Shown one piece after another: positions 1-13,982 of a stretch of 34,964 nucleotides of DNA. The notes under the pieces are model-generated. The model made no database searches, was not told the origin of the DNA, and worked only from the letters and a program-made list of their open reading frames with translations. A program made the translations under genes and the position numbers. The stretch comes from an uncultured Bacilli bacterium. GTDB taxonomy: Bacteria > Bacillota_I > Bacilli_A > RF39 > UBA660. Where the stretch lies: positions 1-34,964 of the forward strand of contig CANQAT010000007.1 in assembly GCA_947588925.1 (NCBI GenBank), written 5' to 3'. Numbering within the stretch: position 1 is the first letter of the stretch; every line of letters begins with the position of its first letter.

Positions 1-37
1 CCTGTCAAGAGGAACATTTGTTTGCTTTACACTTTTT
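1..37 (-). repeat. Copy 1 of a 37-nt exact repeat containing a TTGACA -35 element; the C/G tract would continue beyond the window edge
   Basis: cctgtcaagaggaacatttgtttgctttacacttttt is identical to 13858-13894. Confidence 0.9.
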
Positions 38-11762: not shown

Positions 11763-13799
11763 TTAATCTACATAAGTATATGTCTTAGCAGGTATTCCAT
11801 TAAGTAAACTATCTGGCAAATTCCATTTATCTTTAGTTACCTTTACAACAGATAAGTTAGTACAGCCCCAAAACATGCCATAGTCAGTAGCGCTATGTGT
11901 ATCAAAACTTGTTAAATCTAATTCTGTTAGACCTGTACAGTTTGCAAACATGTTGCGCATAAAAGTTACTTTTGAAGTATCAAAATGACTTACATCGAGT
12001 TTCGTTAAACTACTACAATTATTAAACATTCCTCCCATTTCTATTGCAATAGATGTATTAAAATATTCAAGTCCTACTATCTTACTTAAATTTGTACACC
12101 CATTAAACATTCTAGTCATATATGCTAGTTTTTCAAATGTACAATTCTCTCCAAACTTAATACTTTTTAGATTGGTACAGTTTTGAAATAATGAACAATC
12201 CCAAGAAGTAATAACTGTTACACTCTTTGTATTCCATTTGCTTAAATCTAGATACTCTAAATTACTATCATCGGAAAATAATCCATTCATATTTGTTACC
12301 TTTGATGTATCAAAGTTTTCTAGTCCCTTAATTTCTTTTAGGCTCGTACAGCCACGAAGCATAGAACCCATATTTTCTACTTGCGAGGTATTAAAATTAC
12401 TTAAATCGAGACTTGTTAAACTACTACAACCATAAAACATTCCATCCATTCTTGTTACAGAAGATGTATCGAATTTCTCTAGACCTTTTATTTCTTTTAA
12501 GTTGGTACATCCATTAAACATATTGGACATATTTGTTACTTTGATTGTTTTAAACATACTTATATCTAAATATTCTAAACTACTACAGCCCCTAAAAAGA
12601 CCATTAGAATTATTATAAAAATCAGTAACATTTTCTAAAGTAAAATTCTTCCCAAAGTTTATGCTCTTCAAGCTACTACAAAATGTAAACATTCCTCCAT
12701 TCCAAGTCCCAATAGTTGTTACTTTTCTTGCGTCCCACCTAGTTAAATCAAGACTCGTTAAACTTTTGCAATTATAAAATGTAGCACACATATTTGTTAC
12801 ATTCGATGTATCAAAATTTTCTATTCCTTTTATCTCTTTTAAGTTTATACAGTCTCGAAACATATCACCTATGCTTCTTGCACTACTTGTATTAAAATTA
12901 CTTAAATCTAGTTCTTTTAAACTACTACATCCTGAAAACATACCTCCTATATCTGTTACACTACTTGTATTAATTCCTATAAGATTAATATTTTTTAATG
13001 AATTACAATATTGAAACATCCAAGTCATAATCGTTACTTTACTTGTGTTTATTAAATTTAATTCTATTTCTTCTACTACTTGAAAATTCGCAAAAATCCA
13101 TCTAAGATCTGTTGGACAACTTATATATCCATCACTATATACATAGATTGTTCCATTCTTATCATCATAATATGCATTTGTTTCATATTCACTTTTATCT
13201 GTAGATACTTTTATATGTCTAAAATTTTCTAATTCTTCTTTTGTTAAACCTTCTGGTAGTACACTATCTTGTAAAAAGATTATCTTTTTCACTGTCGTAT
13301 CTGCATAATCTCTTCCATATTTTCCATCTTCTATTGTGTCTCCTACTAATGTCTTTATTTTTGTATTAAAAGTATTTCCATCAACTAAAGTACTCTCATT
13401 TAAGTTTTTTAGTATCTCTATATCTTCATCTGTTACTCTTGCATAGTAATCATCTATTAGTCCCTTTAGTACTCTTGTTACTTTTGAGTTCTCTATTAAT
13501 AGAAGTCCACTTTTTAATCCTCTTCCATCATAGTTTATAAATATCTCTTTATCTCCTAGTACTATTTTCTTTCCATTATCAGTAATAGTGTATAATCCAT
13601 CTTTTACATTATTAAATACTTCTTCATTTATAAGAGACGTATTTACTGCTCTTATATATTCACTTGTACTTATCTTTAATGATTTTATCTTTGCCTCTGT
13701 TATTATATTTAATACTAGTGGTACTGCTATTATAGCAATAAAAGCTAATATTAATATTACTGCTAGTAACTCTACTAATGTAAATCCCTCGTTTTTCAT
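11763..13799 (-). CDS. Prepilin-type N-terminus plus BspA-like (DUF285-type) leucine-rich repeat surface protein
   Basis: NEGFTLVELLAVILILAFIAIIAVPLVLNII prepilin signal/helix; many MFxxCxxLxxLDLSxFNTSxVTxM repeats. Confidence 0.9.
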   Translation of the reverse strand: MKNEGFTLVELLAVILILAFIAIIAVPLVLNIITEAKIKSLKISTSEYIRAVNTSLINEEVFNNVKDGLYTITDNGKKIVLGDKEIFINYDGRGLKSGLLLIENSKVTRVLKGLIDDYYARVTDEDIEILKNLNESTLVDGNTFNTKIKTLVGDTIEDGKYGRDYADTTVKKIIFLQDSVLPEGLTKEELENFRHIKVSTDKSEYETNAYYDDKNGTIYVYSDGYISCPTDLRWIFANFQVVEEIELNLINTSKVTIMTWMFQYCNSLKNINLIGINTSSVTDIGGMFSGCSSLKELDLSNFNTSSARSIGDMFRDCINLKEIKGIENFDTSNVTNMCATFYNCKSLTSLDLTRWDARKVTTIGTWNGGMFTFCSSLKSINFGKNFTLENVTDFYNNSNGLFRGCSSLEYLDISMFKTIKVTNMSNMFNGCTNLKEIKGLEKFDTSSVTRMDGMFYGCSSLTSLDLSNFNTSQVENMGSMLRGCTSLKEIKGLENFDTSKVTNMNGLFSDDSNLEYLDLSKWNTKSVTVITSWDCSLFQNCTNLKSIKFGENCTFEKLAYMTRMFNGCTNLSKIVGLEYFNTSIAIEMGGMFNNCSSLTKLDVSHFDTSKVTFMRNMFANCTGLTELDLTSFDTHSATDYGMFWGCTNLSVVKVTKDKWNLPDSLLNGIPAKTYTYVD

Positions 13800-13829
13800 A
13801 TTCTATTCCTCCCATATTAATCTATCTAT

Positions 13830-13865
13830 ATTATCTCATTGCCCCCCCCCCCCCCCCCCTGTCAA
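13830..13865 (-). promoter_or_regulatory. Candidate phase-variable promoter with G18 tract between -35 and -10
   Basis: Minus strand TTGACA (13860-13865) - G18 (13842-13859) - CAATGA - GATAAT (13830-13835); TG at the extended -10 position. Confidence 0.7.
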
Positions 13866-13894
13866 GAGGAACATTTGTTTGCTTTACACTTTTT
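13858..13894 (-). repeat. Copy 2 of the 37-nt exact repeat
   Basis: Identical to positions 1-37. Confidence 0.9.
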
Positions 13895-13982
13895 GCGTAG
13901 AAGCACTATGCATTTGCCTTTTAAATTAAAGAATAACTAATATAATTATTCCCTTATTTTTTATGTTTATTCATCTATTTAA

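Follow-up and report, generated by a model that had tools for sequence, protein, structure and literature searches.

A candidate phase-variable poly-G promoter shared by a family of prepilin-type surface protein genes in an uncultured gut Bacilli lineage

A run of 18 consecutive G residues lies on the minus strand of the window, the 34,964-nucleotide stretch of DNA analysed here, between the -35 and -10 elements of a gene for a surface-type protein. The question raised by this locus is whether the run is the adjustable part of the promoter, as the initial annotation proposed. The arrangement TTGACA-G18-CAATGA-GATAAT, followed by a ribosome-binding site and a start codon, was re-read and matches that annotation in its coordinates (Table 1). 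The spacer is 24 nt long as written, and a G11 tract would make it 17 nt; the recount agrees with the original arithmetic on both points.

Table 1. Positions of the promoter module, the gene behind it and neighbouring features within the window
Feature	Position	Strand	Remarks
678-aa prepilin-type surface protein	11763..13799	minus	N_methyl motif, conserved N-terminal region, DUF285/BspA-type LRR
RBS GGGAGGA	13807..13813	minus	Read from sequence; ATG begins at 13799
CAATGA + extended -10 (TGA GATAAT)	13830..13841	minus	Read from sequence; CAATGA 13841-13836, TG of extended -10 13838-13837, GATAAT 13835-13830
G18 homopolymer	13842..13859	minus	Variable part of the promoter spacer; read from sequence
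-35 hexamer TTGACA	13860..13865	minus	Read from sequence
LexA-type box CAAACAAATGTTCC	13868..13881	minus	One mismatch to the Gram-positive LexA box; 2 nt upstream of -35
Terminator-like hairpin after tsf, GAATAA...TTATTC, TTTAATTT	13923..13951	minus	Read by eye
Second copy of the same promoter module	1..24	minus	Box 24-11, TTGACA 8-3, then GG; contig end cuts the copy off just after TTGACAGG

The downstream gene, described earlier as prepilin/BspA-like, is indeed an intact open reading frame that carries both the prepilin motif and the leucine-rich repeats. The Pfam and NCBIfam assignments for its product are clear, and the repeats are named PARCEL by NCBIfam. The upstream genes tsf and rpsB end in the terminator-like hairpin, and therefore the 678-aa gene has its own promoter; the same hairpin is common to several copies of the promoter. 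A prepilin peptidase is encoded in the genome; with the prepilin motif and the LRR/PARCEL repeats, the product may be exposed on the cell surface.

The promoter is not unique to this gene. The assembly (1.28 Mb in 80 contigs, 95.6% complete, about 29% GC) would be expected from its base composition to contain about 0.001 runs of 11 or more G or C. It has 19 runs of at least 7 G, all of them tied to prepilin-type genes or to their promoter module: 18 come after TTGAC(A), and one, a G9, is inside the start of a prepilin ORF. Every one of the 12 runs of at least 12 G, counted on both strands, is directly 3' of TTGAC(A), and two further runs are G11. The reversed pattern, used as a control, had no matches. 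Both hexamers are readable in 13 promoters. In eight further copies the contig stops within the tract or shortly before it; four of these show at least G8, and the other four, with 0-4 G, were assigned by the shared upstream core. The module is found before some twenty or more prepilin-type paralogs, many of them carrying leucine-rich repeats of the BspA/DUF285 type. By our own count there are about 31 DUF285 genes in the genome. Since many of their contigs begin within the shared N-terminal coding region, the true number of putatively switched copies is probably greater than 21.

Two details of the module stand apart. In the ATGA-type copies (L001, L003 and L005) CCCCC immediately precedes TTGACA-G(n), so that the -35 hexamer is placed between complementary C and G runs. 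At L007 (G000:C52:535-587) there is a vestigial copy of the promoter, consisting of the box and TTGACAGGGGGGGAGG but having neither a -10 element nor a gene; a functional-looking copy follows about 190 bp downstream.

The tract is the part of the module that differs from copy to copy. The 75-nt flanks of the seven CAATGA-type copies are 97% identical and have no insertions or deletions, whereas the tracts they surround are 11, 11, 13, 13, 14, 18 and 18 residues long and are unequal in 18 of the 21 pairs. The length of the tract therefore evolves far more rapidly than its flanks. A reference for the spacing is provided by the 44 perfect TTGACA/TATAAT pairs found genome-wide, in which the spacer is 17 nt in 27 cases, 16 nt in five and 18 nt in two. 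Some of the poly-G promoters have this spacing and others deviate from it: the readable spacers are 17 nt (C1, C4, C28), 19 nt (C29, C52, C53), 20 nt (C37, C64), 21 nt (C3), 23 nt (C12, C36) and 24 nt (the window copy and C71), individual lengths, especially the longest, being approximate because the 80 contigs often end in tracts. Copies that are identical, such as the window copy and C71 with G18 each, may have been given a single consensus. A spacer of 17 nt is reached with different numbers of G, by G11 with CAATGA and by G13 with ATGA. Two promoters of paralogs that lack the G-run have a spacer of exactly 17 nt, and the interrupted tract GGGAGGGGGGTGG (C32, C2) gives a spacer of 18 nt. 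Both kinds look like locked forms of the promoter.

These comparisons, namely a family extending from G11 to G19 within nearly invariant flanks, a norm of 17 nt to which some copies conform, and relatives without a G-run or with an interrupted one at 17 or 18 nt, strongly support the phase-variable promoter put forward in the initial annotation; the switching itself is what we infer from them. The best reading is a slipped-strand spacer switch similar to that of Neisseria porA but applied to a multigene surface family, and its probability is estimated at about 0.87. On this reading the promoter would be of the sigma-A type and the G18 run the adjustable part of its spacer; the gain or loss of G residues by replication slippage within the lineage would shift the -35 hexamer relative to the extended -10 element. 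Expression would depend on the resulting distance. A spacer of 17 nt, corresponding to G11 in the window copy, would create a strong promoter and a spacer of 19-20 nt a weak one, whereas at 23-24 nt, the state of the window copy as assembled, the promoter would be off or leaky only by virtue of the extended -10 element. In its consensus state the window copy is likely to be OFF or weak. With one module placed before many paralogs, each cell would display a random subset of the surface proteins, from which a selective advantage may arise. The earlier caveat that an extended -10 element could retain activity at non-optimal spacing is well taken, as the TG is present in 13 of the 13 readable copies, which may therefore leak when the spacing is unfavourable; the element could even permit transcription whatever the spacing. 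Loss of mismatch repair was considered as a cause of slippage and rejected: MutS is encoded in the genome, and therefore high slippage from this source is not indicated, a point that weighs against the slippage reading.

The arrangement extends beyond this genome. The poly-G promoter is found in five of 15 other genomes of the genus, mostly before prepilin genes and with spacers of 15-22 nt; the paralogs of one related genome have spacers of 15, 18, 19, 19, 20 and 22 nt. When 85,462 species genomes were scanned for exact matches to TTGACA followed by at least 10 G and ATAAT, 33 stretches were obtained, from Bacilli, Clostridia, Kiritimatiellae, Bipolaricaulota, Synergistales and others, including two named strains, although some of these matches may be due to chance. 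Many of the promoters stand before secreted or surface-type genes, some of which encode BspA-type LRR or InlB-repeat proteins, and some recur as paralogs of unequal length in the same genome (L101, G11; L106, G10). A scan of viral contigs for the promoter pattern gave no matches. In two different Firmicutes assemblies (L105 and L127) a promoter with a poly-G spacer, of 20 and 19 nt, respectively, is positioned ahead of a response-regulator gene.

Of the known systems with which the promoter had been compared, Bordetella fim is the least fitting. Its C-tract is located between the -10 element and an activator site, and not between true -35 and -10 hexamers. Neisseria porA and Mycoplasma vlp, the other two systems named at the outset, together with Treponema pallidum tp0126 are therefore closer parallels. 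In Mycoplasma hyorhinis each member of the vlp lipoprotein family has a homopolymer in its promoter spacer. The likeness is in the spacer homopolymer carried by every member of a surface family in a low-GC relative; the vlp tracts, however, are poly-A and the genes are clustered at one locus, whereas here the tracts are poly-G and the prepilin-type genes are dispersed over the genome. The porA promoter of Neisseria meningitidis, too, belongs to a surface-protein gene and has poly-G between the -35 and -10 elements, 11 G giving high, 10 G intermediate and 9 G low expression (PMC3639595), but it is a single gene with a shorter tract, unlike the single module with G11-G19 before some 20 or more paralogs. 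Poly-G likewise separates the -35 and -10 elements of tp0126, which is transcribed best at a spacing of 17 (PMC7864442), the norm of the present genome, but this is a single spirochaete gene without a shared module. 'Candidatus Mycoplasma girerdii' has a BspA-like surface family with repeat-length variation in metagenome reads, but its switching is translational and uses dinucleotide repeats in the reading frame (PMC5476646), in contrast to the promoter spacing considered here.

Spacer switching is known in principle; the novelty lies in its scale, in the lineage and in a possible coupling to LexA and to a retroelement, and no account of the promoter family was found in the literature searched. 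The initial annotation had not noted the multigene scale, the LexA-type box or the possible link to retroelement-type variable pilins. Promoter-spacer slippage has so far been described mostly in single genes of pathogens. The present data suggest that a host-associated lineage known from assemblies alone runs a large pilin-like repertoire through one slippage-prone promoter design. Since similar promoters occur in unrelated gut taxa, some of them before BspA-type proteins, commensals may use spacer switching more often than is recognised, and breaks in assemblies at the tracts conceal it. With the module present at several tract lengths in a single organism, metagenome reads would allow the dependence on spacing to be examined there.

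An alternative explanation accepts that the tract varies in length, but assigns the main control of expression to a LexA-type repressor bound next to the promoter, the G-tract tuning only the basal level. Promoters of the CAATGA subfamily and related copies have a 14-bp box 2 nt upstream of the -35 hexamer. The box was compared with the operator type CGAAC-N4-GTTCG. Four different exact matches to the degenerate Gram-positive consensus CGAACRNRYGTTYC adjoin poly-G promoters: those of C53 and C32, and CGAACAAACGTTCC and CGAACATACGTTCC in a related species, in which the further flanks are different. The window copy is one mismatch away. LexA is encoded in the genome, and two boxes with this core, TGAACAAATGTTTG and CGAACAAATATTCG, lie in the lexA promoter. 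A strict search for the LexA-box pattern gave 23 sites compared to 15 in a reversed control, the excess being made up by the poly-G promoter family; apart from this family and lexA, none of the strict sites belonged to a clear SOS gene. The box-bearing promoters may plausibly be under SOS control. As the main determinant of expression, however, the repressor is unlikely, because most copies carry CAAAC instead of CGAAC and because the G-tract occurs without the box in the ATGA-type promoters and in most poly-G promoters of other species. To our knowledge, no LexA-type box is known at tp0126.

It is improbable that the G-run is instead a fixed structural element, such as a G-quadruplex or a start site of recombination like that of Neisseria pilE, that drives gene conversion among pilin paralogs rather than promoter switching. 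Tracts of G15 or longer could in principle form an intramolecular quadruplex, and the paralogs are alike in their promoter and N-terminal regions and unlike in their C-terminal parts. Nevertheless, the tract is positioned exactly between the -35 and -10 elements and varies in length, the 11 residues of the G11 copies do not suffice for a three-tetrad quadruplex, and the genomic optimum of 17 nt is found in some copies. An artefact of assembly or of poly-G base calling, to which the several contigs ending within the tract and the implausible A run that continues the left-end tract of C37 might point, is largely refuted and very improbable, since 13 copies read through the tract into the correct -10 element, RBS and gene, and the same arrangement recurs in other species and in unrelated assemblies, including the two named strains.

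Returning to the spacer switch, some of the genes under its putative control may be diversified in their coding regions as well. The poly-G-controlled pilins C12 and C36 (L003:3138-3272 and L005:3198-3332) are near-identical until the last 40 or so codons, where 22 differences are found in the last 135 bases, about one every six bases, and almost all of them change a residue. Other prepilin-type genes have a variable stretch and then FRVVLA at the end. C66 (L193, minus strand, contig end) opens with AACAACAATAATGCTAATAAT, an AAC/AAT-rich repeat and possible template repeat. Just downstream of it is a reverse transcriptase whose match to group II models is weak (61.5, with a cut-off of 300 bits). 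In the stretches examined, no template repeat matching the variable ends of C12 and C36 was found. The pattern of substitutions makes a diversity-generating retroelement signature probable in some of the switched pilins. Whether the surface is diversified in three layers, with a LexA operator and a poly-G spacer switch acting over some 20 or more genes for prepilin-type adhesins, part of them with C-termini diversified by a retroelement, is doubtful; if it were so, DNA damage and random slippage would jointly choose the variants that are displayed.

The single G9 run located within a coding sequence (L140:313-321, G000:C25) is at the 5' end of a prepilin-type ORF, and its nine residues preserve the reading frame. 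It may represent a translational switch in the same class of genes.
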